In this document: positions 10,906-35,079 of the stretch, piece by piece
How the letters are laid out: the number at the start of each line of letters is the position of its first letter
Position numbering within the stretch: the first letter of the stretch is position 1
Source of the DNA: a virus
DNA: 64,000 nucleotides
Reading direction: 5' to 3' (one strand)
Virus record (IMG/VR): IMGVR_UViG_3300042460_000724
Coordinates: 1-64,000 of that record
Position numbers and translations under genes: made by a program
Notes under the pieces: generated by a model
Seen by the model: only the letters and a program-made list of their open reading frames with translations
Told to the model about the DNA's origin: nothing
Databases searched by the model: none

Positions 10906-11479
10906 ATTTGATACCCATGAATCTTTTTATCATGGATTGATTAAAAGCAAACTATGGTTATGTGAGGAACTAGAAACTAGTATATACCATGAATGTTTAA
11001 GTAAACCTACATTACATATTCTGGGATGTTGGGATAATCTATTAGCATTTATTCTACTCACACGTAAACCTGAACTCTATAACGTTGTATATGGTTATGA
11101 TATAAATCCAGAAGCTATTGATAATGCTAATAAAATATGTGATATGTGGAAATATGAATCTCCTAAAGTTTATAATTATGTACAGGATGTAAACGATTAT
11201 GATTACAGTCTACATACTAATAGTATTTTTATTAATTGTAGTGTAGACCAAATGGAAAGTAATATTTGGTATAATTCAATACCTAAGGGTAGTTTAGTAT
11301 GTATTCAGGCCACTGATGTGACAGATAGAGAATTTCCCTGGCTAATTAAACAAACAACTGAAAATTTAAACGAGCTACTTGATAGATTTAATTTTAACAA
11401 TTTGCTGTATTCTGGAACAACTGAGTTAGTTTATAAAGATGGAATATATAACCGATTTATGATTATAGGCCACAAATAA
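10883..11479 (+). CDS. SAM-methyltransferase-like protein
   Basis: 198 residues. HILGCWDNLLAFILL is a degenerate motif I (G-x-G poorly kept). YGYDINPEAIDNA looks like motif II, with the acidic residue that binds the ribose of SAM. The final strand region ends MIIGHK. It overlaps the PP-loop gene by 23 nt, so the two probably act together. A second ATG 6 nt downstream is an alternative start. The weak motif I leaves activity uncertain. Confidence 0.6.
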   Translation: MKMTNLNKFDTHESFYHGLIKSKLWLCEELETSIYHECLSKPTLHILGCWDNLLAFILLTRKPELYNVVYGYDINPEAIDNANKICDMWKYESPKVYNYVQDVNDYDYSLHTNSIFINCSVDQMESNIWYNSIPKGSLVCIQATDVTDREFPWLIKQTTENLNELLDRFNFNNLLYSGTTELVYKDGIYNRFMIIGHK

Positions 11480-15613: not shown

Positions 15614-15777
15614 ATAGGGCACTCAGCAAGTTTTTACGCTACATCCTTCCATCCGCTTCCCGACAGGGACCGTTCTCGCATTGCTAGCGGCCTTTGGGTT
15701 TAAAGACTACCACCCGTAGTTGTCACACTACTTCTCATCGTGCGGGTCACACTATCCGAAGACACTCGGAACGTTCT
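15614..15777 (-). other. Non-coding spacer in the tRNA array
   Basis: About 165 bp, more GC-rich than its surroundings, no credible gene. Short inverted repeats occur (TCCC-GACA-GGGA; GTAG...CTAC; CCCG...CGGG). It may be part of a stable RNA. Confidence 0.3.
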
Positions 15778-15785
15778 GATAAATA
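15778..15785 (+). promoter_or_regulatory. Late-type promoter box GATAAATA
   Basis: Ends 5 nt before the ATG at 15791. Confidence 0.58.
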
Positions 15786-15790
15786 ATTAT

Positions 15791-16402
15791 ATGAATAACT
15801 ATTATAAATTTATTGATATCTCTAATACTAACGAATATATAGATTATTTCTTAAATATATTTATAAAAGAACATAACTTTATGGAATTAGTTACAAAGTC
15901 AGTTAGTAAAAGATACATTGAATACCCAATAGATAAATATCACAATCCAATGACTGCTAAACTTAGTAATGAATTAACTAAAAAATACAAGTTTCCACCT
16001 ATTAGTCATTTTATATTATTTTATCATACATCCGATCAAGCTATACACGCTGATGGTTCTTTAGTTCCTAGATGGTGTAGTTTTAATTTACCATTAATAG
16101 GTTGGGAAGGTACTAGAATGAACTTTTATTCTCCTAAACCTGATGTAATATCTAAAGATAGAGAAGCTAGATACTATGCAGAAAATGATGTGATTTATCA
16201 GGATCATTTTGATTGTACTAATAATTGGGTACTATGTCATAGTGGTTTACCGCATAAAGTATGTAATATGACTACTGAAAATCCTAGGATCACTTTGGTG
16301 AATAGATTTCACGGTAATCCTACTTTTAAAGTATTAACTACTTTAGTTAACTTGTTTGGTGGAGAGTGTGGGATTCGAACCCACGCACCCATTACTGGAT
16401 GA
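15791..16402 (+). CDS. 2OG-Fe(II) oxygenase-like protein
   Basis: 203 residues. AIHADGSLVPRWCSFNLPLI supplies H-x-D, and LCHSGLPHKVCN plus PRITLVNRF supply the distal His and the 2-oxoglutarate-binding Arg. The pattern matches the protein at 32640-33200 (H-x-D...SLN...M-x-[FW]...PH-x2-x-N...R). It is probably a hydroxylase of unknown substrate. The ATG follows a late-type box by 5 nt. The last 15 codons are antisense to tRNA-Ser. Confidence 0.65.
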   Translation: MNNYYKFIDISNTNEYIDYFLNIFIKEHNFMELVTKSVSKRYIEYPIDKYHNPMTAKLSNELTKKYKFPPISHFILFYHTSDQAIHADGSLVPRWCSFNLPLIGWEGTRMNFYSPKPDVISKDREARYYAENDVIYQDHFDCTNNWVLCHSGLPHKVCNMTTENPRITLVNRFHGNPTFKVLTTLVNLFGGECGIRTHAPITG

Positions 16403-17207: not shown

Positions 17208-17846
17208 TTATAAAAAACTATCAGAAGTAACTGTAAAGTCTTTATATTTTTCTATACTTTTTTCTATTAAAGACTTCTGAACAAGTCCATCAACAATTAC
17301 TAATAATTTTTCTCTATCAGGATTATAAGTAGTTCCGTGCCAACAATGTTTGTCATTGTATGAAAACCAATTAGTTTCTTTTGGTAAAGAAAGAGGAATA
17401 GTTTTATTACCGTCTGGTAAGCTAAAATGCCATTGTTGTTCTTCCCAAGGATGATATAACATTGCTCTTATTCTCCATATATCAAGACCGTCATCCGCAT
17501 GAGGGGAAAAATTCTTAAGGCTCTTAACTATACGTATTGTTCTTACATTTGAAAACGGTAAATTAATACATTGTTGATACAACTTTGGTAAACTATGACT
17601 GATATCAACGTACGGGGATTGCCACAATGTTCTTCTCTCGCTACTCGCAGTCTGAAATATGTCCATTCCAAACCAGATATCGTTCCTACCTAACATACTA
17701 TTGTTAGGTACAGGTCTTGATACAGGATTTTGAGGTACAAAATAAGTTTTTACTAAGTTGTCAGCATTCTTATGCCATATTTCCCAAAATACATTCCAAT
17801 CATCTGGAACTAGCGGTGGTATATCTAATGGTGTAGCGATAATCAT
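17208..17846 (-). CDS. 2OG-Fe(II) oxygenase-like protein (hydroxylase)
   Basis: 212 residues. FSPHADDGLDIWRIR holds H-x-D and a following Arg. DKHCWHGTTYNPDREKLLVI holds the distal His and an Arg, with core beta strands between. It differs from the other 2OG-like proteins in the window and may be closer to the aspartyl/asparaginyl hydroxylase type. The start at 17846 was chosen because it lies 5 nt after a TATAAATA box and upstream codons fall inside tRNA-Tyr. Confidence 0.6.
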   Translation of the reverse strand: MIIATPLDIPPLVPDDWNVFWEIWHKNADNLVKTYFVPQNPVSRPVPNNSMLGRNDIWFGMDIFQTASSERRTLWQSPYVDISHSLPKLYQQCINLPFSNVRTIRIVKSLKNFSPHADDGLDIWRIRAMLYHPWEEQQWHFSLPDGNKTIPLSLPKETNWFSYNDKHCWHGTTYNPDREKLLVIVDGLVQKSLIEKSIEKYKDFTVTSDSFL

Positions 17847-17851
17847 ATTAC

Positions 17852-17859
17852 TATTTATA
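17852..17859 (-). promoter_or_regulatory. Late-type promoter box TATAAATA
   Basis: Exact T4-type late box on the - strand, 5 nt before the ATG at 17846, and 4 bp from the 3' end of tRNA-Tyr. Confidence 0.62.
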
Positions 17860-17863
17860 TGCT

Positions 17864-17948
17864 TGGTGGAGATTACTGGGATCGAACCAGTCGTGCTATA
17901 AAGCGGCGGATTTACAGTCCACTGCATCACCATTGATGCTTCATCTCC
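17864..17948 (-). tRNA. tRNA-Tyr(GTA)
   Basis: Type II with long variable arm, anticodon stem GTGGA/TCCGC, loop CTGTAAA, encoded CCA. One mismatch at the base of the acceptor stem. Confidence 0.9.
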
Positions 17949-23160: not shown

Positions 23161-23463
23161 ATGATCGTAAATTCTACTACTCTCCGAGTAATTACAGCCA
23201 AGACAGATTCCTCTATAGAATTCTACAAAGATGTATCTGTTATGAATTATGTATTAAACGAATACATATTACCCAGCAAACTAGTTGCAGTCACTCGTAA
23301 AGAAGATGATGGCCTTACTGTTATAACCACATTAAATTTTGCATCAATTGAGTATATGCGTGAGTTCCTTTCCGATCCGATAATTAAAGAGTTTGGTAAA
23401 GTAAAACAAGCATATAATCAACAACATAACATAACAACCAAAACTGAGGCAATTAATGACTAG
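23161..23463 (+). CDS. Small alpha/beta protein, paralogue 1 of 3
   Basis: 100 residues. The pattern EFYKD...YVLNEYI...DDGLTVITTLNFASIEYMREFL recurs in the proteins at 26166-26483 and 27101-27412. The layout (strand, helix, strand, DGL turn, strand, helix) suggests a ferredoxin-like or ABM-type dimeric barrel. It overlaps the 2OG-oxygenase-like gene by 8 nt. The predicted transcript starts at or next to the ATG. Function unknown. Confidence 0.6.
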   Translation: MIVNSTTLRVITAKTDSSIEFYKDVSVMNYVLNEYILPSKLVAVTRKEDDGLTVITTLNFASIEYMREFLSDPIIKEFGKVKQAYNQQHNITTKTEAIND

Positions 23464-23989
23464 AATAGTAAACGATTTTATATTAGAATTACCAGAAATA
23501 ATAGTAGATGTAGATGCTATATCAGATGATTGGATTAATGCTCATAAACCGAACAAAAGATTTGCTGTTTTAGATAAAATTCCTAGCGATCCTGTACTAA
23601 ATAAATTTGTAAAGTCATTTGATGAATCATTATTTGATGACCGAATTAAATTTATGATCCTTCGCTTTGACTCATATGATGAGTATGGTGCGCACGTAGA
23701 TGCTAGTAGGTATACCGGTATTAATTTGTTGATACGTGGAAATTCTCAATATAGCCCCATCAAATATTATTTAGATGATGATTTAACGAATCCAGTATTT
23801 GAATATCAATACAAAAATTACCCTATACTAATGACAAGTCAACGATATCATAGTATTAAAAATGATCATGAATCTGAAAGAATATTGTTTACCATACATT
23901 TTAAAACAGATTATACATTCCAAGGAATAAGAGATGAATGGTCTTTAGGTAATAAAGACTTGTTTTTTTCTAAAACAGGTTCTAAATAA
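23456..23989 (+). CDS. 2OG-Fe(II) oxygenase-like protein (prolyl-hydroxylase type)
   Basis: 177 residues. YGAHVDASRYTGINLLIRG supplies H-x-D; TSQRYHSIKNDHESERILFT supplies the distal His and the Arg that binds 2-oxoglutarate. It is paralogous to 30737-31249, which shares H-x-D, INxLx and FHSVxN...R. Its last 79 nt are antisense to the end of the radical SAM gene. Substrate unknown. Confidence 0.65.
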   Translation: MTRIVNDFILELPEIIVDVDAISDDWINAHKPNKRFAVLDKIPSDPVLNKFVKSFDESLFDDRIKFMILRFDSYDEYGAHVDASRYTGINLLIRGNSQYSPIKYYLDDDLTNPVFEYQYKNYPILMTSQRYHSIKNDHESERILFTIHFKTDYTFQGIRDEWSLGNKDLFFSKTGSK

Positions 23990-25656
23990 ATTTCATTTGT
24001 AATTTGTTGCATTTGTTGTCTAAACAAATTATAAATACCACTATTCATAATATGAATTGAGTGTACTGCAATAATATTATGCTGTAAAAAATGATCATAC
24101 ATATCATCAACCAATGAATGATATTTATAAAAATTGTCCAAGAATATATCAACTTTTCTATTCATTACTCCAAAAAAGTAATATTTGTATATATAATTTT
24201 TAACTATACCAGTATACCATTCTTTATTAGACATGCTATATGTAGATGTTATTAAGTTAGCTTCTGTAAAATAAGTTTGCAATATGTCCGGAGTTAACTC
24301 AGTAACCGTACTAGGTATTTGTAAATGTGCTACATAAACTTTTTCCACATTTATTTGATATTTTTTAATATATTCTGGGTCAGATGCCGGACTATTTGGT
24401 AACATCTCATAATAGAAATAATGTGTTTGAAATCCTAATTCAGTGGTCTCTATTAAGTTATAATCATAATGTGACAACGTTTGTCCTGGCAATCCCCAAA
24501 TATAATTAATTTTAGATTTAAAATGTCCTGCTACTTCCGGGAACTCATCAATAAATTCTTTAATCATTATCTTATGTTCTGACCATGGGATTTCGGGTCT
24601 ATCTAATTTAGCAATAACTTCTGGATCTAAATCTTGTACATCAAATTTTAACTTATTCTCTAATCCGGCTCTGATCATTTTTTTATACAATTCATGTGAT
24701 GCATCCTTCTTCACTTTAGACAACTGTAAAATAAAACTCTTAGGGCAAGTTGGATGAGTAGTTTTTAGTTTACACCAATAATCTACAATTTCACTATCTT
24801 GAGGACTTAACCCAACATTAGGATTAGACCATTGTACCATATGAAATTTTAAATCAGCAAACAACTCTAATTCTTGTTGATATGCAGGCCTTTCATTTTC
24901 AGGTAAAATGTCTTTTTTAATTCCCCAAAATCTAACTTTATTATGTAAACCCGAACTCCAATCACAAAATGAACACGCATACGGACAACCTTTTGTTGTT
25001 TCCCATACTCCTATTATAGTAGGATATCGCTTGAACCTATTAAACGAATCAGTTCGGAATTTGTTTATTACTATTTTAATTTCATCCTTATATGTTAAGT
25101 ATGGACTTTTTTTCAATGTTTCTTTATCATTAAAAACTGCATGCGGGTATACAGTCCCGTCACTTGATACAACATTAGTTAACTCTATTTGTTTTCCTGC
25201 TAAATGATCTAACAAATCAGTAAATGCTTTTTCTCCGTCCCCGTATACTACGTAATCATACCATGAATTTTTATTAAAGAATTCAGTGTCTTTGTGTGCA
25301 TCTAATTCAGGCCCGCCTGCAATAATAGTGATATTTGGTAATCTTTTCTTTATTTCTTGGCAAACTATTTTAAAGTAAACTTTATTCCATACATAAACAC
25401 TAACACCAATTATATCCACTTTATCATTTTGTAATCGTATACATAGATCATCCAAAAAGGCTGCATTAATGCCCTCACCTGGTTCAGGACCAATTAATAA
25501 ATCTTCAGGCGGTAACCAATTATATAAGTCTTTGCTTTTACTATTTGTATCAAAATACAATCTTAAAAAATAGTTAACAAAAGAGAAAAATTTTGAGTCT
25601 TGAATATTGGGGAAATAAATTCGGTATTCACTTGTTAGTATCTTTATATTACGCAT
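23911..25656 (-). CDS. B12-binding-type radical SAM protein
   Basis: 581 residues. The N-terminal 180 residues have a Rossmann-like cobalamin-binding layout (DIIGVSVYVWNKVYF...ITIIAGGPELDAH...YVVYGDGEKAF), although the classic D-x-H-x2-G is not kept. TKGCPYACSFCDWSSG (about residue 228) gives the C-x3-C-x2-C cluster site. A TIM-barrel region and a 150-residue C-terminal extension follow. The class is related to B12-dependent methyltransferases and cyclases. The ATG follows a GATAAATA box by 5 nt. The substrate is unknown. Confidence 0.82.
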   Translation of the reverse strand: MRNIKILTSEYRIYFPNIQDSKFFSFVNYFLRLYFDTNSKSKDLYNWLPPEDLLIGPEPGEGINAAFLDDLCIRLQNDKVDIIGVSVYVWNKVYFKIVCQEIKKRLPNITIIAGGPELDAHKDTEFFNKNSWYDYVVYGDGEKAFTDLLDHLAGKQIELTNVVSSDGTVYPHAVFNDKETLKKSPYLTYKDEIKIVINKFRTDSFNRFKRYPTIIGVWETTKGCPYACSFCDWSSGLHNKVRFWGIKKDILPENERPAYQQELELFADLKFHMVQWSNPNVGLSPQDSEIVDYWCKLKTTHPTCPKSFILQLSKVKKDASHELYKKMIRAGLENKLKFDVQDLDPEVIAKLDRPEIPWSEHKIMIKEFIDEFPEVAGHFKSKINYIWGLPGQTLSHYDYNLIETTELGFQTHYFYYEMLPNSPASDPEYIKKYQINVEKVYVAHLQIPSTVTELTPDILQTYFTEANLITSTYSMSNKEWYTGIVKNYIYKYYFFGVMNRKVDIFLDNFYKYHSLVDDMYDHFLQHNIIAVHSIHIMNSGIYNLFRQQMQQITNEIYLEPVLEKNKSLLPKDHSSLIPWNV

Positions 25657-25661
25657 AAATA
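25654..25661 (+). promoter_or_regulatory. Late-type promoter box CATAAATA
   Basis: The + strand box of a divergent pair, 22 bp before the cupin start at 25684. Confidence 0.5.
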
Positions 25662-25669
25662 TATTTATC
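25662..25669 (-). promoter_or_regulatory. Late-type promoter box GATAAATA
   Basis: The - strand box of the divergent pair, 5 nt before the radical SAM ATG. Confidence 0.6.
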
Positions 25670-25683
25670 TAGAAAAGATTTGT

Positions 25684-26169
25684 ATGAAAACATCACAAGA
25701 CATTGTAAAAGCGTTTATTCAGAGCGGGTATAAACACATGGAAAACATACCGAATAATCAGGTGTTTTATACCGATAATTCTTGTAGTACATTAGCCTGG
25801 GTAGAAGATAATATAGTTATTGAATATTACTTATTATTTCCTAATTTAGAAACACCATTACATCATCACCCATTTGATAATCAAATGATATACATAACAG
25901 GTGACTTAACTGCTTATAGACAAGAAGGAGGTAAGCCTGAAACTAGATTTACTGTAAAATTTAAAGATGAGATGAAAAATCATTTAAGCAAAATAATGCC
26001 AATTGGCGGTGAACATGGATTTACAGTAGGTGAGCGAGGGGCTGTTATTTATAATATACAGATTTGGCCAGATTTAGTAAAAAACGCATTAAGTGCGGCT
26101 ATTGAGTATTCCGGTACTTCAATGGGCCCTAAACACAAAAAACTCATTGAGAGTTTTAAATCTACTTAA
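25684..26169 (+). CDS. Cupin-like protein
   Basis: 161 residues. PLHHHPFDNQMIYITGDLTA is a cupin motif 1 with three His; MPIGGEHGFTVGE fits motif 2 with its His. The C-terminus (GTSMGPKHKKLIESF) resembles that of the cupin at 26512-27099 (GELQGPIQAKLIKEH), so the two are paralogues. It ends convergently with a small paralogue gene, 4 nt overlapping. It may be a metal-dependent enzyme or small-molecule binder. Confidence 0.7.
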   Translation: MKTSQDIVKAFIQSGYKHMENIPNNQVFYTDNSCSTLAWVEDNIVIEYYLLFPNLETPLHHHPFDNQMIYITGDLTAYRQEGGKPETRFTVKFKDEMKNHLSKIMPIGGEHGFTVGERGAVIYNIQIWPDLVKNALSAAIEYSGTSMGPKHKKLIESFKST

Positions 26170-26483
26170 ACTGTTTCTTCATTGACAACTACACCGGTAA
26201 TTCCATGTGCTGCCCAATAAATATCTCTTACAGAAAATAACCCACTATTTAAAGTAGCATCATTTTTGTAATCTAGGTAACTTTGTTGATCCGCCCATAT
26301 TTGAACTGTTTCTAATTCTAATTGATTTTCTGACAGGTTTACATTTATATGTATGCATTTTCCTGTTTCTTTATATTCTTGTACCCAGTACAAACGTATA
26401 TCATCCGAAACGATCGGATCCGCTATAGTATAAAATGAATCTGCTAAGGTTTGTCTAGTAATTTTTCCAGTCACAATGTACAT
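26166..26483 (-). CDS. Small alpha/beta protein, paralogue 2 of 3
   Basis: 105 residues. SFYTIADPIVSDDIRLYWVQ, then YKETGKCI...LELETVQIWADQQSYLDY, aligns with the proteins at 23161-23463 and 27101-27412. AGGAGATAT precedes the ATG, and a GATAAATA box lies 22 nt further up. Function unknown. Confidence 0.6.
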   Translation of the reverse strand: MYIVTGKITRQTLADSFYTIADPIVSDDIRLYWVQEYKETGKCIHINVNLSENQLELETVQIWADQQSYLDYKNDATLNSGLFSVRDIYWAAHGITGVVVNEETV

Positions 26484-26505
26484 GTGTATATCTCCTAATT
26501 CTATA

Positions 26506-26513
26506 TATTTATC
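26506..26513 (-). promoter_or_regulatory. Late-type promoter box GATAAATA
   Basis: Upstream of the gene starting at 26483, leaving a normal leader with AGGAG. Confidence 0.55.
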
Positions 26514-27099
26514 AATTTTTATTAATTGCTATGCTAACATCAGCATATCCATCTTTAACTAACGCAGTTTCTTGGTGTTCTTTTATTAATTTTGCTTGAA
26601 TAGGTCCCTGCAATTCACCTTTCCAATGTACAGCCGCACTAGTCATTTCTTCAGAATTTTCCCATTTTTGAAACGCTAAAGTACAAAAACCAGTACTTAA
26701 TACTGTAACAGTGTCTCCACCATGATACTCTCCGGGCATTAGCTTTTTGCGAGCGGTACCCCAAATTTTAGAAACATCGTTAGATTGTCTAGGACTAAGC
26801 CCACCGCCACCTAATTCCATTGTAATAACTTCCATTCTAGGATGTGCATGCCTACGAATGTACATTTTAGGGTATTCTAAATAAAATTCTACTTGGTAAT
26901 TACCTTTTCGGAATACACATATAGCAACTGCATCATCACTCCGTATTACTTCTGCATTGAATGGTATCATCATTGGCATTTTAGATTTCATATACCATTC
27001 TACAAAATCTTCTAATGTATTCCAATCATCTGGTATCGTTATTCCATTAAAAAATTCGGTTGCATCGTATTGTTTCCATATCTCTAACTGTGTTGGCAT
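26512..27099 (-). CDS. Cupin-like protein
   Basis: 195 residues. YIRRHAHPRMEVITMELGGG is a cupin motif 1 (H-x-H...E) and LMPGEYHGGDTV fits motif 2. The C-terminal AAVHWKGELQGP block is shared with the cupin at 25684-26169. It is 1 nt downstream of the small paralogue gene at 27101-27412, so a small protein and a cupin are paired here. Role unknown. Confidence 0.68.
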   Translation of the reverse strand: MPTQLEIWKQYDATEFFNGITIPDDWNTLEDFVEWYMKSKMPMMIPFNAEVIRSDDAVAICVFRKGNYQVEFYLEYPKMYIRRHAHPRMEVITMELGGGGLSPRQSNDVSKIWGTARKKLMPGEYHGGDTVTVLSTGFCTLAFQKWENSEEMTSAAVHWKGELQGPIQAKLIKEHQETALVKDGYADVSIAINKN

Positions 27100-27100
27100 T

Positions 27101-27412
27101 TTATTCCTCTATTATTGAAAATTCTGTTTCTATATCATTGCTTTTATTATAAGCATTACTCGGCTCAATTACATTATTGTAACAAACATCATCTGTCACA
27201 AACTCTAAGAAAATAAGATGCGATTGCCAAACTGTTGTACCAATCATAGTTAATCCATCATCAGTCATATGTTTTTCTGACTTAATGAATTTACCAGTCT
27301 TTATGTACTTTTCATGAAAATACATATTGTATTTTTCTACCGTAGGATACTTTTCTGTATAAAACAATGTTTCTTTATTTGGTCTTGTTTGTTTTTTAAT
27401 TACAGTGAACAT
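27101..27412 (-). CDS. Small alpha/beta protein, paralogue 3 of 3
   Basis: 103 residues. LFYTEKYPTVEKYNMYFHEK, YIKTGKFIKSEKHMTDDGLT and TTVWQSHLIFLEFVTDD match the other two paralogues. The ATG is 6 nt after an ACTAAATA box that overlaps the upstream stop codon. Function unknown. Confidence 0.6.
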   Translation of the reverse strand: MFTVIKKQTRPNKETLFYTEKYPTVEKYNMYFHEKYIKTGKFIKSEKHMTDDGLTMIGTTVWQSHLIFLEFVTDDVCYNNVIEPSNAYNKSNDIETEFSIIEE

Positions 27413-27418
27413 GATATC

Positions 27419-27426
27419 TATTTAGT
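27419..27426 (-). promoter_or_regulatory. Late-type promoter box ACTAAATA
   Basis: Overlaps the stop codon of the PP-loop gene and lies 6 nt before the ATG at 27412. Confidence 0.45.
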
Positions 27427-28606
27427 CATTACACAAGTAATGCCATTTAGTTTTACAAACCGATAAGGTATCTTGGTTTCGCATAAAACGCATATCAATT
27501 TGATTCAAGTAGCTTTTCCAATGATATTGCCATGCTTGCTGTATTCGTTCGAAATCAGGAACTTCTGTCAAAATATTATCCCACGCCCTTGTACCCAATT
27601 TAAAGCCATCTAATATTGCAAAAGGTTTATCTGCTTGAAAGCGATTGAAGTCCCAATATGGATAACAAACTAGTTTTGCAATTTCGGTTACTTGTGTATA
27701 TTCAAGGTAATGATGTTTATAACTCATATTAACAAATGACGGGTCTACTTTTATACGATCAGAAGTTGCCTGTACTAAGTATGCTTTGGTATTATTTATT
27801 TTAAAATAACGTTTCATCATATGAGCCTGTGCCACTGCAATATCAGGAAAATTAGGAGACCAATAAAAATACTCAGTACCGTGTGGATTATCGGGATTTG
27901 GTTGAGCCATACAAGCAGTATCAACAAAGTAAAAGAACCATTTACCTTCTTTATGAACCACACACGGCTTATCAACCCCAAATATACTAGCCACTTTTTT
28001 GCCCTGAAGTGCTAGTGTACCTTCTGTTACACTAAATGTGTTTTGTTTTTGCGCTCTGGCAATACTAGGTAAGTTACTAACATCATTGGCAAATATATCA
28101 TCTTTGTAAAATTGCTCTTTTACTGTATTAGTCCAATCTGCTATCTCAATTTTAATTTTAGGATGATTTTTACCTAGCCACTCTAAGTCTTTCTTTAAGA
28201 CTAAATCCCATTCACTGTGGAAATTTGCGTTGGTTCTGTCTAAACTATTAGGAGTATATATACCTTTATCCATTAGTTGTTCTGGCCATTGAACAAAAAT
28301 ATGATCTAATTTTATTCCATACTCTAAAAAAGTCATTAGTATATTATGACTATCGCTACCACCACTATAGTTTAGGATTAGATAGTCATTACTATCTCTT
28401 AATTGCTGGGCTCTTGCTCTATATAATTCTTTAAGCAATATGTGATTGCTATTGAATTTAATACTGGCTGCAGAAAATACATCATCATAGAAGTTCCAAC
28501 TTAATTCCGATTTTGTTTTGCTGGCCTCAAGTATTGCTTGCAATTTGTTGCCAGTAGAGACACCATTGACAATGTAATGACCATTGGTTTTATTACTTAA
28601 TATCAT
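27422..28606 (-). CDS. PP-loop ATPase (asparagine-synthase-like) protein
   Basis: 394 residues. YLILNYSGGSDSHNILMTFL (about residue 87) is the SGGxDS ATP-pyrophosphatase loop. There is no glutaminase domain. A following FVQWPEQ and a long aromatic C-terminal half distinguish it from the other PP-loop proteins here. The start at 28606 (ATG) was preferred over an in-frame TTG 12 nt upstream. It overlaps the next PP-loop gene by 14 nt. It may adenylate an acid for amide or thio-transfer chemistry; substrate unknown. Confidence 0.75.
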   Translation of the reverse strand: MILSNKTNGHYIVNGVSTGNKLQAILEASKTKSELSWNFYDDVFSAASIKFNSNHILLKELYRARAQQLRDSNDYLILNYSGGSDSHNILMTFLEYGIKLDHIFVQWPEQLMDKGIYTPNSLDRTNANFHSEWDLVLKKDLEWLGKNHPKIKIEIADWTNTVKEQFYKDDIFANDVSNLPSIARAQKQNTFSVTEGTLALQGKKVASIFGVDKPCVVHKEGKWFFYFVDTACMAQPNPDNPHGTEYFYWSPNFPDIAVAQAHMMKRYFKINNTKAYLVQATSDRIKVDPSFVNMSYKHHYLEYTQVTEIAKLVCYPYWDFNRFQADKPFAILDGFKLGTRAWDNILTEVPDFERIQQAWQYHWKSYLNQIDMRFMRNQDTLSVCKTKWHYLCND

Positions 28607-29519
28607 GCGGGATTCCAATTATCTCCGTCAATAGTTCATCTAACGTTCTATTTACTAGTTGTCTATAAGGTAAACCTTTATATTTTTGTTTGAGGAAAGA
28701 TTCAAATTCATTTATCAATTCATCAGTCTTTTCAAAACCAGTTTGTTTTTCTCTAGTTATCAGATCGGGATATGCTTCTCTAAATCCTGATAGTTTTGAG
28801 GAATTAAGTCCTAATTTTCCTATTATTTCATCATTGACTAATTGTTTAAACCATTTAAGTTGAGTATAAGATATTACTAAGCCGGGCGTCCATTTCCACC
28901 ATTGATAAATTGCAGGACGATTGTGCAATATATTGTATTTGTCGCAACCAATATCATGCTCAAAATCTTGTGCCAACCACGTAGCTTTTTTAGTATAATC
29001 ATCATGCGGCCTATACCATCGTATATCGCTATGACCTACAATGATTAATCCATCTGCACATTCGGTAAATTTAATATGAGGTAACATTCTAGGACGATCT
29101 ATCTGAGCATCCTCTGCTATTTTTTCAGCATCATTTTCATAAAATTGTTGTAAATTAAAATCTATTAAATTATATTCAACTTTTAATATTGTACAAATGG
29201 TTATAGCATAACTTACATCATAAATGTTTAAATCGTTTTCATATCGTACAATGTATACTTTAGGATTAGCACCTATATCTAAATAAGCACGTAGAATCAA
29301 TTCACTATCTACCCCACCACTAAAGAATATGCAAGGTTTTAATCCGGGGTAATGATCCAATGTACTTTTTGCTGCCTTCTGTAATTCTTCCTTAAAGGAA
29401 CCAATTGGCGTATTTGATTTACCGTAGAATGTGTTAAACGGCAAATTACTTGTTTGACGACCAAATAGTGGTTCATCACCATATTGCCATTGATACCAAT
29501 TGTTTTCACTTGTGTACAC
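28593..29519 (-). CDS. PP-loop ATPase (asparagine-synthase-like) protein
   Basis: 308 residues. CIFFSGGVDSELILRAYLDI (about residue 65) is the ATP-binding loop. IYDVSYAITICTILKVEYNL matches a block in the PP-loop protein at 10000-10905, making those two close paralogues. GTG start at 29519, overlapping the hydroxylase gene by 14 nt. It is in the middle of an overlapping gene series, which argues for joint function with its neighbours. Confidence 0.75.
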   Translation of the reverse strand: MYTSENNWYQWQYGDEPLFGRQTSNLPFNTFYGKSNTPIGSFKEELQKAAKSTLDHYPGLKPCIFFSGGVDSELILRAYLDIGANPKVYIVRYENDLNIYDVSYAITICTILKVEYNLIDFNLQQFYENDAEKIAEDAQIDRPRMLPHIKFTECADGLIIVGHSDIRWYRPHDDYTKKATWLAQDFEHDIGCDKYNILHNRPAIYQWWKWTPGLVISYTQLKWFKQLVNDEIIGKLGLNSSKLSGFREAYPDLITREKQTGFEKTDELINEFESFLKQKYKGLPYRQLVNRTLDELLTEIIGIPHDIK

Positions 29520-29937
29520 GTGTATATGTCCTAAATATTATATCCCATAAGGGAGTAAACAACCCGTAATTAAAAGTAGAGCGGTGATGTATTAAATGCC
29601 ATTTGCCACTAGTTAATATAGGAATGTTAAAATTTTCATTGTGTTCAATTGTTTCTTGAATAAACGCTGCCCAAACATAATAAAATAATAGTATCCACCA
29701 TTGTCCTGTTACCATTGAAAAAAGAATTGTGGGGATAACTTCAGTAAGCCACAAATCTATAGTACTAGTCCAATCATCATTGAACAAGAACAGATTAGAC
29801 CAATGCCATGTGGTCTTATATTGTAGCACAAATCTATGATGATGCATATGTACATTACGCATCACAGGTAGATAATGACCTATTCTATGAATCCAATATA
29901 ACATTAGAGTCCATAGTAAAAAATACAAAACAAACAT
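29506..29937 (-). CDS. Fatty-acid hydroxylase superfamily membrane protein
   Basis: 143 residues. The three His boxes of the sterol desaturase / fatty-acid hydroxylase family are present: HRIGH, HMHHH and HLIHH. Two or three membrane helices separate them. The protein is short for the family (usually 200-300) and keeps mainly the di-iron core. It follows the desaturase gene with no gap. Confidence 0.8.
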   Translation of the reverse strand: MFVLYFLLWTLMLYWIHRIGHYLPVMRNVHMHHHRFVLQYKTTWHWSNLFLFNDDWTSTIDLWLTEVIPTILFSMVTGQWWILLFYYVWAAFIQETIEHNENFNIPILTSGKWHLIHHRSTFNYGLFTPLWDIIFRTYTRVHK

Positions 29938-30711
29938 TTAAATTTTTATCAGTTTTATGATAAGTCCGGATATATCAAATTCCCACCACTGCTTTTTAAA
30001 TGTGTAGTCTTTGGGGAATCTGTGATGATTATTGTGCCACGCTTCTCCCCAACTAGGGATGGCCCATAACCAATTATTAGCACTTTGGTCATTTAAATTG
30101 TAGCTACGATAGCTTCCCCACCATGCAGGTTTATGTCCAACATAATTAACTACGTTACTCATTACACCAGTAAGTAATGCAGGAGCCCAATGTAGGAATA
30201 TCATTAGCCAAAAGCCACCAATCATATACAATATTATACTATAAAATGCAATTATAGCAAAGTAATAACGGTGCAACAACTGTTGGAACTTATCGGTAAC
30301 AAGCCCACGCATACGCCATTTAGTATCGGTATCTACTTCATTTACATAGTCGAGTTTGAAAATGCTTAAGCCTTTATATAAAGGACTATGAGGATCTGAT
30401 GGCTTATCACTTTTTAAATGATGATTAATATGTATAGCAACCCAAGCTAGTGGACTACCTGTACCCGCAAAACAACCAAACACGGATAAAATTTTAGTTA
30501 ATAAAGGATAGGTAGTATAGCTATTATGAGTTAATCTTCTATGATACGTGACTACTATCCCCAAACATCCGTACATAAAATATCCTATAAGTATTAATAA
30601 TAATGCATTAGCCGTTATGCCATATATTCCAAAGGCTGCGATAGTACCTATCAATGATAGGATCATAAATATTTGTGCACCTTTTGTGCTTGATGATAGG
30701 TAGTGTGTCAT
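29938..30711 (-). CDS. Acyl desaturase (delta-9 type), membrane
   Basis: 257 residues. The His boxes HRRLTH, HINHH and HNNHH with four hydrophobic segments define the acyl-CoA/acyl-lipid desaturase family. GEAWHNNHHRFPKD is typical of bacterial delta-9 enzymes. It inserts a double bond in membrane acyl chains using a di-iron centre and an electron donor. A paralogue lies at 31246-32001. Confidence 0.88.
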   Translation of the reverse strand: MTHYLSSSTKGAQIFMILSLIGTIAAFGIYGITANALLLILIGYFMYGCLGIVVTYHRRLTHNSYTTYPLLTKILSVFGCFAGTGSPLAWVAIHINHHLKSDKPSDPHSPLYKGLSIFKLDYVNEVDTDTKWRMRGLVTDKFQQLLHRYYFAIIAFYSIILYMIGGFWLMIFLHWAPALLTGVMSNVVNYVGHKPAWWGSYRSYNLNDQSANNWLWAIPSWGEAWHNNHHRFPKDYTFKKQWWEFDISGLIIKLIKI

Positions 30712-30736
30712 AAAAGTATTTTATAGTGTCACTTAT

Positions 30737-31249
30737 TTAGTCGAGGTGTATTCTGTTTTTATACATAGCATCTTTTTTAAACTTATTTTTTACTGACTCA
30801 AATGATTCTTCAGTTGAACCCAATGATAGCAAATATCTCACATCCGTTTTACTATTATTTGATACACTATGAAATTGTTTGGTGTTAAGTAATACTAATT
30901 TATTTTTAGCATATGGGATAAGTTCTTTATTTTTTAAATTATTATTGTACACAAACGCACAAAAGTTATTAGAATTTTCAACCATTAGCATATTAACTGC
31001 GGCAAATCGTTTGCTATCTTTATGTATTCCATAATCCCATCCAGGTTCATTTTTAAAGAATCCAGCATCGTCAATTTTAAAAGGCATCACATTTTGAATT
31101 AAGAATCTTAGGTCTTTACTAATGTCAGCCCGACATTGCCTGTGTTTACTAGTATACCATTCTGCCTTATTCAATTCTGTGTATATGTCATCAATAAATG
31201 TAAATTCTAAGTCAATGTGATAAAAAAAATCTTCTAAATTTTCTATCAT
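30737..31249 (-). CDS. 2OG-Fe(II) oxygenase-like protein (prolyl-hydroxylase type)
   Basis: 170 residues. YGIHKDSKRFAAVNMLMVEN holds H-x-D; NTKQFHSVSNNSKTDVRYLL holds the distal His and Arg. Closest in pattern to 23456-23989. It lies between two desaturase genes, overlapping the upstream one by 4 nt, which ties it to lipid or small-molecule chemistry by context. Confidence 0.65.
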   Translation of the reverse strand: MIENLEDFFYHIDLEFTFIDDIYTELNKAEWYTSKHRQCRADISKDLRFLIQNVMPFKIDDAGFFKNEPGWDYGIHKDSKRFAAVNMLMVENSNNFCAFVYNNNLKNKELIPYAKNKLVLLNTKQFHSVSNNSKTDVRYLLSLGSTEESFESVKNKFKKDAMYKNRIHLD

Positions 31250-32001
31250 GTTTTTTTCCTAAAAATATCAATACAATATCCAATTGGGTCAACTTCCCAA
31301 TATTTTATTTTAGTAGTAAAATTTCCAGGATTTTTATGATGGTTATTATGCCATCCTTCACCCCATAATATCAATGATATAAACCAGTTGTTTTTACTTG
31401 AGTCTTTAGTTTCAAAGTTTCTATATCCAAACGTATGGGACAAGAATACAAACAAGTCAAGCGCAATGTATGACAAAGTAAATGGTATCACGTAGAAGAA
31501 ATAGAATAATGCAGGTGATATCATCAGTAATGCAACCGACCAAAGAATAATAAACAGCAAGTAATACTTGTTAATATTGATATGTGGTTTATTCAACATA
31601 TCAATAATTATGCGTTTATTAATAGTATCTCCATAATGTATCAAATGCGGAAAGAATATCTTCCAACCTACAGTTGATGGATCATGTGGATCTTGCGGGG
31701 TGTCTGAAAACTTATGATGAGTTCTATGGACGTATACCCAACCTAATGGGCTACCACGACCAGCAACAATAGCAAACCAAGTGCATACCCATTTAAGAAA
31801 ATTACTCTTAAATTCAAAGGAATGGTGCGAATAATAACGATGTAGCATCATACTTACACCTATACCACTGAGTAGAAAATAACCTATTAATACGTACGGT
31901 AATGCTTCCCAAGTAAATTCAAAGACAAAAAATCCAGCAATAGTCAATACTAGCGATAATAGTTGAAGTATTGAAAGATTTTTTGCGCTGGCAGTGAACA
32001 T
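31246..32001 (-). CDS. Acyl desaturase, membrane
   Basis: 251 residues. His boxes HRYYSH, HRTHH and HNNHH are present, with four to five hydrophobic segments. It is related to the desaturase at 29938-30711 (shared GRGSPLGWV/GTGSPLAWV and GEGWHNNHH/GEAWHNNHH). The ATG follows a GATAAATA box by 5 nt and has no Shine-Dalgarno. Confidence 0.88.
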   Translation of the reverse strand: MFTASAKNLSILQLLSLVLTIAGFFVFEFTWEALPYVLIGYFLLSGIGVSMMLHRYYSHHSFEFKSNFLKWVCTWFAIVAGRGSPLGWVYVHRTHHKFSDTPQDPHDPSTVGWKIFFPHLIHYGDTINKRIIIDMLNKPHININKYYLLFIILWSVALLMISPALFYFFYVIPFTLSYIALDLFVFLSHTFGYRNFETKDSSKNNWFISLILWGEGWHNNHHKNPGNFTTKIKYWEVDPIGYCIDIFRKKT

Positions 32002-32006
32002 AAATA
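31999..32006 (+). promoter_or_regulatory. Late-type promoter box CATAAATA
   Basis: The + strand box of a divergent pair, 26 bp before the ATG at 32033. Confidence 0.5.
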
Positions 32007-32014
32007 TATTTATC
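32007..32014 (-). promoter_or_regulatory. Late-type promoter box GATAAATA
   Basis: The - strand box, 5 nt before the desaturase ATG at 32001. The sequence from box to ATG is identical to that at 25654-25669. Confidence 0.6.
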
Positions 32015-32032
32015 TTGAAAAGTATCTACCCA

Positions 32033-32638
32033 ATGAAAATAGTACGTTATAGTGATTTAGCTGATGATGCTGAGTTTTTTAATTTTTTAAAAACACAATC
32101 ACTTGAGGTAGATCAACCTGCAAGCGTAAACCTTTGGACAGAAGATTGGGAAACAAATGTAAGTACTCTACCTTACATATTAAATAATACCAAACGATTC
32201 GACGGTACTAACGGCGAGTTTTATATACTATACGAGAATGATTTAATCATAGCGTGTGGCGGAGTGTATATTAGTGATTTCAGTAAGGATATTGCAATTG
32301 CAGGTGTTCGTACTTGGGTTAGTAAAAATTATCGGCATTTAGCGTTAAACAAAGACTATCTATTAGTAGAACATAAAAAATGGGCTATGAATAAGAATAT
32401 AAAAATGATAGCTCTTTCATTCAATGAATATAACAAGAATATTATCCAAATTTTCAAACGTAATAGATTAGGTGAGAAGCCAGGAAGAATCAACAGTCGA
32501 GAACCTCATAATATATTTTATAGTGGTCTGCATGAAGTTAACTTTCCAGTAACTATACAATATACTCGACAATGGATAATATACGAAAAAATTGACAATA
32601 CATTTAACTTTGATTGGTCAAAACTAATGAAAGTATAA
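32033..32638 (+). CDS. GNAT-like acyltransferase
   Basis: 201 residues. DLIIACGGVYISDFSKDIAI, then RTWVSKNYRHLALNKDYLLV and MIALSFNEYNKNIIQIFKRN, fit the beta2-beta5 / alpha4 core of GNAT enzymes. The Q/R-x2-G-x-G/A loop is degenerate. ATG at 32033 was preferred over an in-frame GTG at 31994 that would overlap the divergent promoter. It abuts the 2OG-like gene downstream. Confidence 0.6.
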   Translation: MKIVRYSDLADDAEFFNFLKTQSLEVDQPASVNLWTEDWETNVSTLPYILNNTKRFDGTNGEFYILYENDLIIACGGVYISDFSKDIAIAGVRTWVSKNYRHLALNKDYLLVEHKKWAMNKNIKMIALSFNEYNKNIIQIFKRNRLGEKPGRINSREPHNIFYSGLHEVNFPVTIQYTRQWIIYEKIDNTFNFDWSKLMKV

Positions 32639-32639
32639 A

Positions 32640-33200
32640 ATGACAGCAATGAAGTATCATCATCTTTTAGATTTACCAACATCTTATTTTATTAAAGATT
32701 TTAATGTAATACCTGAACTACCAGAAAATAAAGAATTTCATGTATCTAGGTGTGATCCTAAACTTTATTTGCAAGATAACATATACAAAAAACTATCAGA
32801 ATTAGGAACATTGTATAGTCTAGTATTTTCTATGATTCCGGGAGCAGATAAAAAAAGTATTCATATAGATTTAGATGCCTCTACACTAGAACCATATTGG
32901 CCTAGTCTTAATATTATAATTAACGGTCAGGGTGTTATGAGATGGTTTAATCCAGCTGCCATCGGAGTTACTTTAAAAAACAACAATGCAGGAGTGTTTT
33001 ATAAAGCATGGTTTAATAATTACGGAGAACCAATTGATGAATGGAATCACGGAAAAGTAGCATTAGTACGAACTGACACTCCGCATCAGGCTTGGAATTT
33101 TGACAATGATATTAGAAGAATAGTAACTATTCGTTGGAGTAATAGGAGATCATGGGAAGAAACTATTGATTGGTTTAATAGAAACTTCCCTGATAGTTAA
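32640..33200 (+). CDS. 2OG-Fe(II) oxygenase-like protein
   Basis: 186 residues. SIHIDLDAS holds H-x-D. NIIINGQGVMRWFNP is the central strand pair. VRTDTPHQAWNFDNDIRRIV holds the distal His and the Arg. It is paralogous to 15791-16402. One nt after the GNAT-like stop. It ends 4 nt into the convergent AhpD-like gene. Confidence 0.65.
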   Translation: MTAMKYHHLLDLPTSYFIKDFNVIPELPENKEFHVSRCDPKLYLQDNIYKKLSELGTLYSLVFSMIPGADKKSIHIDLDASTLEPYWPSLNIIINGQGVMRWFNPAAIGVTLKNNNAGVFYKAWFNNYGEPIDEWNHGKVALVRTDTPHQAWNFDNDIRRIVTIRWSNRRSWEETIDWFNRNFPDS

Positions 33201-33736
33201 ATAGAAACTTTACCTATAGAATTAACAACCGCCGCAATGCGACCAATTGCCATTAATTCTTGAGTAGTCATTCCTTCTTTTTTTAGTGTATCATAATGTG
33301 CTTTTACACAGAAATGACATTTACCAATGATACTTGCGGCTAATGAATACATTTCAAATTTCTTCTTAGATACACCACCGTGTGTAGCATACGCATTCAT
33401 ACGCAAGCCAGCTGGTAAACCCTTCATGCCTTCATCTCCTGCCATCTCAACGAATGGGTACCATACGTTGTTTTGACCCATGAGACTTGCGGCTGTCTTT
33501 GCGGCTTCACGCTCTGCTTCATTACTGAACAATGGACTGTTATGTTCAATCTCAAACGCTAAACCACCATTGCCTGCGGCTAATGCTGATACATAAGCAA
33601 TAGCGTGTGTGTCTACTGGATCTAGCCCTGAACGATTAATAACTGCATCAATGTTTAGTTTGATATCTTTAGAGTGATCTGGGATACTATCTTTTACAGA
33701 TTGTACCCAATCACCATTTAAGGTGATTGGATTCAT
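33197..33736 (-). CDS. ahpD: Alkylhydroperoxidase AhpD
   Basis: 179 residues, the usual AhpD length. ASIIGKCHFCVKAHYDTLKK carries the redox-active C-x2-C followed by the conserved His. The all-alpha carboxymuconolactone-decarboxylase fold is consistent. AhpD reduces AhpC in mycobacteria and others. Here its start overlaps the ahpC stop by 4 nt (ATGA), so the two are translated together. Confidence 0.87.
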   Translation of the reverse strand: MNPITLNGDWVQSVKDSIPDHSKDIKLNIDAVINRSGLDPVDTHAIAYVSALAAGNGGLAFEIEHNSPLFSNEAEREAAKTAASLMGQNNVWYPFVEMAGDEGMKGLPAGLRMNAYATHGGVSKKKFEMYSLAASIIGKCHFCVKAHYDTLKKEGMTTQELMAIGRIAAVVNSIGKVSI

Positions 33737-34320
33737 AGTGTTTCACCACCAATTGGACGACTGCAAGGGCATAGTTCACCGGTTTGCAATGCATCTAATA
33801 CACGCAATGTTTCTTCTGGGCTACGACCAACATCTAAATTATTAACAGTAACGTGTTGAATAACATTATTTGGGTCAACAATGAAGGTTGCTCTCAATGC
33901 CGCTCCTGCAGGTTTGTAAAAGATACCAAGTTGATTTGCTAGACCTTCTGGAAGTTTCTTTGTCCATTTATCTGTTTCTTGATCATAACCTTCGTCTGCT
34001 TCTCTTGCGGTATCAGCAAATTGATTATGACTAATCTTTGCTAAGTCTGGATGTGCTTTTTGCCAAGCTACTTTACAGAACTCATTATCAGTAGAACCTG
34101 TTAGTAATACTGCATCACGATCAGCAAAGTCTTGTGTCAATTTGTCATATGCTACAATTTCTGTTGGGCATACAAATGTAAAGTCTTTTGGATAGTAAAC
34201 GATAATTTTCCATTTACCTGCAAAACTTTCTTCTGTAATTGGGAAGAACGCATCTTCCGGTTGTCCTGGCTTAACACCTGTTATTACAAATTTTTCTAAT
34301 TTATCACCGACTGTTTTCAT
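33733..34320 (-). CDS. ahpC: Peroxiredoxin AhpC
   Basis: 195 residues. FTFVCPTEIVAYDKL holds the peroxidatic Cys; ELCPCSRPIGGETL at the C-terminus holds the resolving Cys in a C-x-C setting like the AhpD-linked AhpC type. It reduces peroxides in the cytoplasm with electrons passed from AhpD. A TATAAATA late box lies at 34367-34374 and AAGGAGAAAAT precedes the ATG. Confidence 0.9.
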   Translation of the reverse strand: MKTVGDKLEKFVITGVKPGQPEDAFFPITEESFAGKWKIIVYYPKDFTFVCPTEIVAYDKLTQDFADRDAVLLTGSTDNEFCKVAWQKAHPDLAKISHNQFADTAREADEGYDQETDKWTKKLPEGLANQLGIFYKPAGAALRATFIVDPNNVIQHVTVNNLDVGRSPEETLRVLDALQTGELCPCSRPIGGETL

Positions 34321-34390: not shown

Positions 34391-34693
34391 TTATTCTTCA
34401 CTAGATGGTAAGCCGTTACTATGTTTATCTGTAGTTTTCTCTACATCTTGGTACAATCGTTTTTCTTGTGCTGTTAATGTGTCTTTGTGTGTCCTACGAG
34501 GGTTGCCACATAGATAGCACTCTGGATTGCCGCAATCCATAGCGTGATGTTTAGCTAAACGATGAGGTTCTTTTACTGCTTTATCTTTATTAGTCAATCC
34601 GTGTGCTTTTGCTATCTTAACTTGTTTTTTAACTGCTGTTTCGTCCCTATGACGGCGTTGTGAATTTAAAAATTTTGCTAAATCATTGGCCAT
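34391..34693 (-). CDS. Conserved small Cys-rich protein
   Basis: 100 residues. KHHAMDCGNPECYLCGNPRR has a C-x4-C-x2-C cluster and a preceding His, a likely metal site. The start at 34693 fits a GAGAGAAA site and overlaps the IscU C-terminal frame by 11 nt. This motif recurs in small bacterial and phage proteins of unknown function. Confidence 0.65.
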   Translation of the reverse strand: MANDLAKFLNSQRRHRDETAVKKQVKIAKAHGLTNKDKAVKEPHRLAKHHAMDCGNPECYLCGNPRRTHKDTLTAQEKRLYQDVEKTTDKHSNGLPSSEE

Positions 34694-34952
34694 TATATTT
34701 CTCTCTATAATCATTTACTGCGGCTTTGATGGCGTCTTCGGCAAGGATACTGCAGTGGATTTTGACTGGGGGGAGGCTGAGTTCTTCGGCAATATGGGAG
34801 TTTTTAATTGATGTTGCTTCATCCAATGTTTTACCCTTGACCCAGTCTGTGACAAGACTTGAGCTAGCAATTGCTGACCCGCACCCATATGTTTTAAATT
34901 TGGCATCTGTTATAATTCCTGTTTCTTTATTCACTTTTATTTGGAGTTTCAT
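34683..34952 (-). CDS. iscU: IscU-type Fe-S scaffold, C-terminal fragment
   Basis: 89 residues from ATG at 34952. FKTYGCGSAIASSSLVTDWV and LPPVKIHCSILAEDAIKAAV are almost the bacterial IscU sequence, with the second and third ligand Cys and the neighbouring His. The N-terminal third, with the first ligand Cys, is in another frame (34927-35079) because of a 7-nt insertion. GGAG, created by that insertion, lies 5 nt before this ATG. An in-frame GTG at 34970 is an alternative start. Confidence 0.8.
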   Translation of the reverse strand: MKLQIKVNKETGIITDAKFKTYGCGSAIASSSLVTDWVKGKTLDEATSIKNSHIAEELSLPPVKIHCSILAEDAIKAAVNDYREKYNGQ

Positions 34953-35079
34953 TACATCTCCAACAACCACACGCCGGGGCTCCTACCATACCAGTCCCAA
35001 CGTGCGTGTCCTCCTTATCAAAAGTTCCCACATTTCGTGGGTTTTCGTAGTGGTCAACTACTTTATCTGAATATGCCAT
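34927..35079 (-). CDS. iscU: IscU-type scaffold, N-terminal fragment (frameshifted)
   Basis: A 50-residue frame. MAYSDKVVDHYENPRNVGTF...GTGMVGAPACG matches the start of IscU up to the first ligand Cys. The frame then leaves the family after ACG, where bacterial IscU continues GDVMKLQ, and stops after 12 unrelated residues. GGAGAACTATA precedes the ATG. Either a split two-subunit scaffold, a +1 programmed frameshift, or a damaged gene. Confidence 0.75.
   Translation of the reverse strand: MAYSDKVVDHYENPRNVGTFDKEDTHVGTGMVGAPACGCWRCNETPNKSE

Follow-up and report, generated by a model that had tools for sequence, protein, structure and literature searches.

Gene content of the cassette

The DNA analysed here, referred to as the window, comprises the initial 64 kb of the 110,305-base IMG/VR virus record IMGVR_UViG_3300042460_000724. 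From position 23,161 it carries a dense cassette of genes for oxygenase-, desaturase-, hydroxylase- and ligase-like proteins, which comparison with relatives supports as a real and conserved gene system of phages, previously undescribed and of a biosynthetic or lipid-tailoring kind. All of the genes named in a previous sequence-only reading of this region were found in place, most of them with catalytic motifs intact. The overlaps it reported are also present, and measure 4–26 nucleotides (nt) between many neighbours and 79 nt between the convergent OG1 and rSAM genes. The unit runs past 33,200, where that reading ended it, to approximately 34,970, adding AhpD-like, AhpC and IscU-like genes. 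Taken singly, the PP-loop, cupin, 2-oxoglutarate (2OG) oxygenase-like, GNAT and approximately 100-amino acid (aa) proteins match Pfam weakly, and they were assigned through relatives, motifs and folds. The features are listed below with strand and with profile hidden Markov model (HMM) or other evidence.

23161–23463 (+): SMALL paralogue 1, about 100 aa, predicted ABM-type ferredoxin-like domain; SMALL family HMM 3.9e-25; late-type box just 5'
23456–23989 (+): OG1, 2OG-oxygenase-like protein of the OGa family; H80, D82, H132 and R142 invariant across the family alignment, related to proteins of Asp_Arg_Hydrox type
23911–25656 (−): rSAM, putative cobalamin-dependent radical SAM protein of TokK/KedN5/CysS type; Pfam, PDB and NCBIfam matches, CxxxCxxC
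25657–25683 (no strand): palindromic divergent late-type box ATAAATATATTTAT, common to rSAM and cupA
25684–26169 (+): cupA, cupin; H60, H62 and H111 conserved, family HMM
26166–26483 (−): SMALL paralogue 2; paralogy, box upstream
26512–27099 (−): cupB, cupin; paralogous to cupA, relatives fused to SMALL
27101–27412 (−): SMALL paralogue 3; AlphaFold2 model and Foldseek
27422–28618 (−): PP1, PP-loop ATP-dependent ligase-like protein, TTG start; SGGSDS
28593–29519 (−): PP2, PP-loop ATP-dependent ligase-like protein, core gene; SGGVDS, predicted fold
29506–29937 (−): FAH, membrane diiron hydroxylase-like protein, core gene; PF04116 3.6e-12, 14-nt overlap with PP2
29938–30711 (−): DES1, acyl desaturase-like protein; PF00487 3e-16
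30737–31249 (−): 2OG-oxygenase-like protein of the OGa family; motifs, family HMM
31246–32001 (−): DES2, acyl desaturase-like protein; PF00487 4.6e-17, late-type box upstream
31994–32638 (+): GNAT-family acyltransferase-like protein; weak singly, recognised via relatives
32640–33200 (+): 2OG-oxygenase-like protein of the OGb family; motifs, family HMM
33197–33736 (−): AhpD/CMD-like alkylhydroperoxidase, conserved neighbour; PF02627 9.3e-14, AhpD family 7.9e-32 but under the subfamily cut-off
33733–34320 (−): AhpC peroxiredoxin, conserved neighbour; PF00578 2.5e-19, late-type box upstream
34683–34970 (−): IscU-like Fe-S scaffold (NifU_N), frame interrupted upstream; PF01592 5.1e-39

The hydroxylase-like and PP-loop core

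FAH exceeds the cut-off of PF04116 (47.3 bits against 31), and the three His boxes are kept in 56 of 57 members of its family. The SGGxDS motif is present in 70 of 70 PP1 and 74 of 77 PP2 family members. The PP2 model (mean pLDDT, the predicted local distance difference test, of 83) is nearest to beta-lactam synthetase, NMN synthetase, AsnB and LarE at template modelling (TM) scores of approximately 0.4, with carbapenam synthetase also among the matches. The motif and the low-TM fold together make membership of the PP-loop superfamily clear, and leave the reaction only to be inferred. PP2 shares the PP-loop synthetase fold and SGGxDS with beta-lactam synthetase and AsnB, but, unlike them, it has no N-terminal Ntn/glutaminase-type domain, because its PP motif already sits at residue 67 of 308.

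Conservation among phages

In the first scans of viral contigs, PP2 returned seven and then sixteen loci, PP1 nine, and the cupins forty-three. Relatives were clustered and their genes labelled by strict HMMs, and 13 dereplicated loci, the window included, proved to have seven or more of the 14 cassette families. Because PP2 had been the first anchor, a fresh scan of viral contigs was anchored on FAH alone, and this gave 72 loci in 54 dereplicated groups, 52 of them with FAH called. In 50 of these 52 phages FAH has a PP-loop gene no more than eight genes away, with PP2 directly 3' of FAH in 31 and PP1 directly 5' in 18. PP-loop genes made up 50 of 104 genes at a distance of one gene from FAH, 106 of 729 at one to eight, and none of 376 at nine to sixteen; groups anchored on the cupins, which are mostly other phages, had a PP-loop gene nearby in 7 of 29. 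TctC genes are near FAH in 22 of the 52, DES genes in 21 and PP1>TctC pairs in 18, and tail-fibre-like genes recur beside FAH loci. The families therefore do co-occur in other phages, which the sequence-only reading had put forward as the check on its proposal, and the objection that there is no conserved neighbourhood fails because the FAH-anchored scan shows PP-loop linkage. The pair of FAH and a PP-loop gene thus occurs in at least 50 uncultivated aquatic phages after dereplication, and compact minimal sets consist of FAH with PP2, or of FAH, PP1, PP2 and TctC.

The closest relative, L001, lies in a 348.7-kb contig in the order IscU-P107-AhpC-AhpD-GNAT-OGa-rSAM-DES-OGc0-DES-FAH-PP2-PP1-SMALL-CUP-SMALL-P450-CUP-CUP. 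Core genes are closely similar to those of the window (PP2 97% identity, FAH 92%, PP1 89%, DES1 85%), whereas the tailoring genes are not (GNAT 48%, DES2 43%, SMALL 37%); the rSAM is different, and a cytochrome P450 has been added. The ratio of nonsynonymous to synonymous substitution rates (dN/dS) between window and L001 was 0.06–0.2 for PP2 (0.07), PP1, FAH, DES1, cupB, AhpD and AhpC, which indicates purifying selection.

Twelve phage records, including the 348.7-kb one, were examined for additional functions. Cytochrome P450 occurs in three of them, nearest to a cyclodipeptide-associated P450 and TxtE. The sequence-only reading had noted that no carrier protein was visible, and this holds more widely, with PF00550 found in 0 of the 12 records. 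It had also seen no transporter, but TctC/Bug binding proteins are present in 7 of the 12 records, that of the window not among them. Of 62 of these periplasmic TctC proteins, 61 have signal-peptide-like N-termini. A CoA-transferase III gene lies within the cassette of contig L089.

A near-identity DNA search among phages gave no match, and 50,697 phage records contained none to PP1, PP2, FAH (two versions), cupB, the SMALL-cupin fusion or the P450. A fatty acid desaturase match in an 'Acinetobacter phage' record was dropped, as it sits among ordinary bacterial genes. One pattern-based scan of GTDB genomes found PP2 in only one contig, from a metagenome-assembled genome (MAG), and in that scan it was absent from bacterial genomes; a later search found a second cassette contig in the same Nitrososphaerales MAG (L071, L089). 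An archaeal origin was considered on account of this match and judged less likely, with approximately 100 relatives giving weak PP-loop matches only. Neither MAG contig carries a phage hallmark gene; both are nevertheless likelier to be misbinned phage DNA, because they are short and made of cassette and the PP-loop matches of the relatives are weak. The pairing of FAH with a PP-loop gene was not described in the open-licence PMC papers that were searched.

Tailoring families and late-type boxes

Both desaturase-like proteins pass the Pfam cut-off and have the full SCD1-type histidine set and hydrophobic segments, and the DES family profile matches stearoyl-CoA desaturase (SCD) 4ymk at 1.8e-22. 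By sequence they are SCD1/DesA-type acyl desaturase-like proteins, although the Asn of the NxxxH motif, present in 17 of 20 DES proteins, is missing from DES2 of the window.

The rSAM protein matches the Pfam B12-binding domain above its cut-off (4.5e-10) and Radical_SAM just under the curated cut-off (5.4e-06), with CxxxCxxC at residue 224. Its matches to TokK (3.3e-28) and CysS (2.5e-12) in PDB and to KedN5 in NCBIfam (2.3e-33) suggest that it resembles these cobalamin-dependent natural-product C-methylases, with which it shares the B12 and radical SAM domains and the cysteine motif. However, the KedN5 score of 115 bits is far under the curated cut-off of 700, and no recognised carbapenem or enediyne pathway surrounds the gene. 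A scan of viral contigs with the rSAM protein alone found no relatives.

All three 2OG-like proteins of the window keep HxD...H, to which the OGa family adds R, while OGb has HxD and H; 4 of 24 aligned 2OG-like proteins match the Asp_Arg_Hydrox family of Pfam, and none of those in the window does so singly. The three SMALL proteins are paralogues, with near-invariant F17, D52, L54, D74 and Y88 and no Pfam ABM match. The monomer model of SMALL paralogue 3 (pLDDT 97) has a ferredoxin-like alpha+beta fold, nearest by Foldseek to the ABM oxygenases/cyclases FasU, SnoaB and ActVA-Orf6 (best 4.5e-05, TM about 0.45–0.63), and we predict ABM-type folds for this family. The cupins cupA and cupB are paralogous to each other and conserve HxH...H, but neither has a significant match to a Pfam cupin family. 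Natural SMALL-cupin fusions occur in L064, L016, L036/L037 and L061, and since such fusions draw iterative HMMs into the cupins, the SMALL HMM was built strictly. The GNAT protein scores 0.021 singly and is recognised through its relatives, as 5 of the 24 proteins in the alignment match Acetyltransf_1 (2.5e-05 at best).

Late-type boxes shared by divergent genes, also claimed in the sequence-only reading, are confirmed by position-specific enrichment. Of the 72 window genes, 12 have ATAAATA in the 60 nt preceding them, compared to a mean of 1.25 (maximum 4) in shifted windows and 1 in reverse orientation, and 6 of the 12 are in or beside the cassette region. The cupA and rSAM genes diverge over the palindromic ATAAATATATTTAT; TATAAATA by itself showed no enrichment window-wide. 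The distribution of these boxes is consistent with late expression of the cassette.

Interpretation

The claim that the region represents a single undescribed biosynthetic or lipid-tailoring system is supported by its genes and their motifs, the conserved clustering, the fusions, the promoter-box enrichment and the purifying selection, all of which are observed, while making a natural product or modifying lipids is a candidate role. As a tentative reading, to which we give slightly less than an even chance, we suggest that the cassette encodes a probably late-transcribed tailoring pathway with a core of FAH and PP2 (often with PP1), which would form an amide and alter the host envelope. We infer its substrates, step order, amide, product and benefit from gene content. 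The membrane diiron oxidases suggest an aliphatic, membrane-held substrate, and a host-supplied acyl or other carboxylate could be desaturated and hydroxylated at the membrane by DES1, DES2 and FAH. A PP-loop ligase co-encoded with FAH points to ATP-dependent activation of a carboxylate, which PP2/PP1 would adenylate and probably convert to an amide, and GNAT possibly adds an acyl group onto an amine. In relatives, TctC binding proteins and CoA-transferase suggest a supplied carboxylate, which they may deliver or activate. The variable oxygenases, methylase and ABM-cupin proteins point to diversification, in which phage-specific enzymes (Asp_Arg_Hydrox-like 2OG proteins, the cobalamin rSAM methylase, ABM-cupin and, in relatives, P450) would oxidise, methylate or rearrange the product, so that the outer steps would be exchanged from phage to phage. 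AhpC and AhpD may remove peroxide, and IscU may supply Fe-S clusters. The likely benefit would be a changed envelope of the infected cell, for example against competing phages.

Auxiliary genes of phages are usually interpreted singly, as ways of boosting the metabolism of the host. The fixed pairing of a hydroxylase and a ligase, with exchangeable oxygenases and methylases, suggests instead that late in infection phages carry out a multi-step chemistry of their own, and makes a new lipid, a superinfection barrier and a phage-made bioactive compound testable as candidate outcomes. It is conceivable, though somewhat less likely than not, that lytic aquatic phages carry a self-contained, combinatorial small-molecule pathway with undescribed chemistry, in which membrane diiron oxidation coupled to ATP-dependent PP-loop amide or lactam formation would act on a carboxylate supplied by TctC and CoA to give a phage-specific product used in competition or on the envelope.

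Several points weigh against an envelope-directed, amide-forming pathway. No enzyme of the cassette can be assigned to a substrate from its sequence, and the fold matches of PP2 are at low TM, from a model with a mean pLDDT of 83. The 2OG, cupin and SMALL identities stand on motifs, profiles among relatives and predicted fold, and the rSAM, P450 and ABM families would indicate natural-product chemistry as much as lipids. The proposed envelope change derives from location, mosaicism and literature alone. Carrier protein (PF00550), PlsC (PF01553) and CoA-transferase are absent from the 12 phage records, and CoA-transferase is known from one contig of uncertain, likely phage, origin. In addition, P103 is fast-evolving, with a dN/dS of 0.51 between window and L001.

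The ornithine-lipid pathway comprises the GNAT protein OlsB, the 2OG hydroxylase OlsC, the FA_hydroxylase protein OlsE and an OlsA-type (PlsC) acyltransferase. The cassette shares with it the set of N-acyltransferase, Asp_Arg_Hydrox-type oxygenase and FA_hydroxylase. However, a PlsC/OlsA homologue occurs in 0 of the 12 records, although the host could supply one, and the ornithine-lipid pathway lacks the PP-loop ligases, desaturases and radical SAM protein of the cassette.

Phage desaturases are known auxiliary genes, as in the Nitrospirota phages of Lake Baikal (PMC7678222), and cyanophage lipid desaturases (Roitman et al. 2018) are cited in PMC11480375. These are phage-encoded proteins of SCD/DesA type, like DES1 and DES2, but they have been described singly, whereas here two are clustered with a hydroxylase, ligases, oxygenases and a methylase. 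In pelagimyophages, a hypervariable host recognition cluster, situated among tail-fibre genes between VrlC and gp14, contains glycosyltransferases and radical-SAM cassettes, and freshwater members also have stearoyl-CoA desaturase and 2OG oxygenase. The role proposed in that study is to alter the cell surface against co-infection (PMC7029224). The novelty claimed for the cassette by the sequence-only reading is limited by this earlier description of a tail-fibre-linked radical-SAM region and desaturase. In the isolate Mosig EXVC030M (MT647606), the genes near the tail fibres include members of the OGa, DES and GNAT families as well as peroxiredoxin, MoaA-like and carbamoyltransferase genes. 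With the host recognition cluster and Mosig together, the cassette has in common its genes for radical SAM, Asp_Arg_Hydrox, desaturase, GNAT and peroxiredoxin proteins, but the FAH-PP-loop core is not described for that cluster, and the Mosig stretch has no matches to FAH, PP1/PP2, SMALL or the cupin family.

Among other explanations, it is possible, if unlikely, that infected cells release a diffusible natural product, for instance an acyl amide or lactam resembling an antibiotic or a signal, and that their own membrane is not the target. The closest relatives of rSAM are carbapenem, cystobactamid and kedarcidin methylases, the PP2 fold is closest to beta-lactam synthetase, and the affinities of the P450, the ABM-cupin fusion and the quick swapping of tailoring genes among close relatives would all suit such a product. 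Against this, the 12 records hold no polyketide synthase or nonribosomal peptide synthetase carrier, no precursor peptide or exporter was seen, the core consists of membrane acyl-type oxidases, and the benefit to a lytic phage is not clear.

We consider it improbable that the genes form an island of the host recognition type, altering lipopolysaccharide or lipid A to block superinfection and not necessarily acting in one linear pathway. The gene content of the pelagimyophage tail-fibre regions (PMC7029224) and of Mosig, and the tail-fibre-like genes that repeatedly adjoin FAH loci, fit such an island, but the cassette is without glycosyltransferases and in the window is not directly among tail fibres, and the fixed FAH-PP-loop pairing across phages favours a defined reaction over a loose island.

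Unrelated auxiliary genes with separate roles, assembled in a hypervariable region, would explain the strong mosaicism relative to L001, with its replaced rSAM, gained P450 and very unequal GNAT and PP2 identities, but this is very unlikely, being largely refuted for the core by the FAH-PP-loop linkage and disfavoured by the PP1>TctC pairs, the SMALL-cupin fusions and the recurrence of families in 13 dereplicated loci. Hypermodification of nucleic acid (7-deazaguanine in DNA or tRNA), with PP2 as a QueC-like enzyme, is the most improbable reading and was rejected on the missing QueC-type C-terminal zinc-binding Cys motif (0 of 77 PP2, 0 of 70 PP1), since despite a weak Pfam match of PP2 to QueC, FolE and QueE near FAH-PP2 in one class of relatives and 25 tRNA genes in the window, only 7 of the 52 phages have FolE close to FAH, FolE/QueE families were not found in the cassette region of the window, and FAH and DES are membrane proteins.

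Other features of the window and its relatives

Further paralogues of cassette genes lie elsewhere in the window.

10000–10905 (+): outlying PP-loop protein of the PP2 family; HMM 1.1e-81
15740–16402 (+): outlying 2OG-like protein of OGa type
17208–17933 (−): outlying 2OG-like protein of OGc0 type

At 10000–11479 (+), the PP2-family gene overlaps a 198-aa open reading frame that by eye appears Rossmann methyltransferase-like, without a Pfam match.

The IscU-like gene is broken directly after its GAPACG codons, where the window has 7 extra nt; at the same site L001 and L064 have 9 nt with an in-frame TAG, and L011, L019 and L024 have none. An HNH-like endonuclease gene lies just upstream, and the interruption may therefore be a scar related to homing, or a case of recoding.

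In a second phage type (L007, L018, L020, L021 and L023, with FAH loci L099 and L110), FAH-PP2 is located between a glycosyltransferase-like gene and FolE and QueE-like genes, which in some members are joined by SAM-synthetase genes. L030 and L058 have another biosynthetic-looking island adjoining a tail-fibre-like gene, which encodes as many as three B12 radical SAM proteins together with a PP-loop protein, two cupins, a methyltransferase, an SDR protein and 2OG-like proteins. In many smaller phage contigs (several of L031–L070), the same cupin family directly follows tail-fibre-like genes, without FAH or PP-loop genes. Close to the end of the window, a 3124-aa open reading frame extends over 54505–63879 (−).

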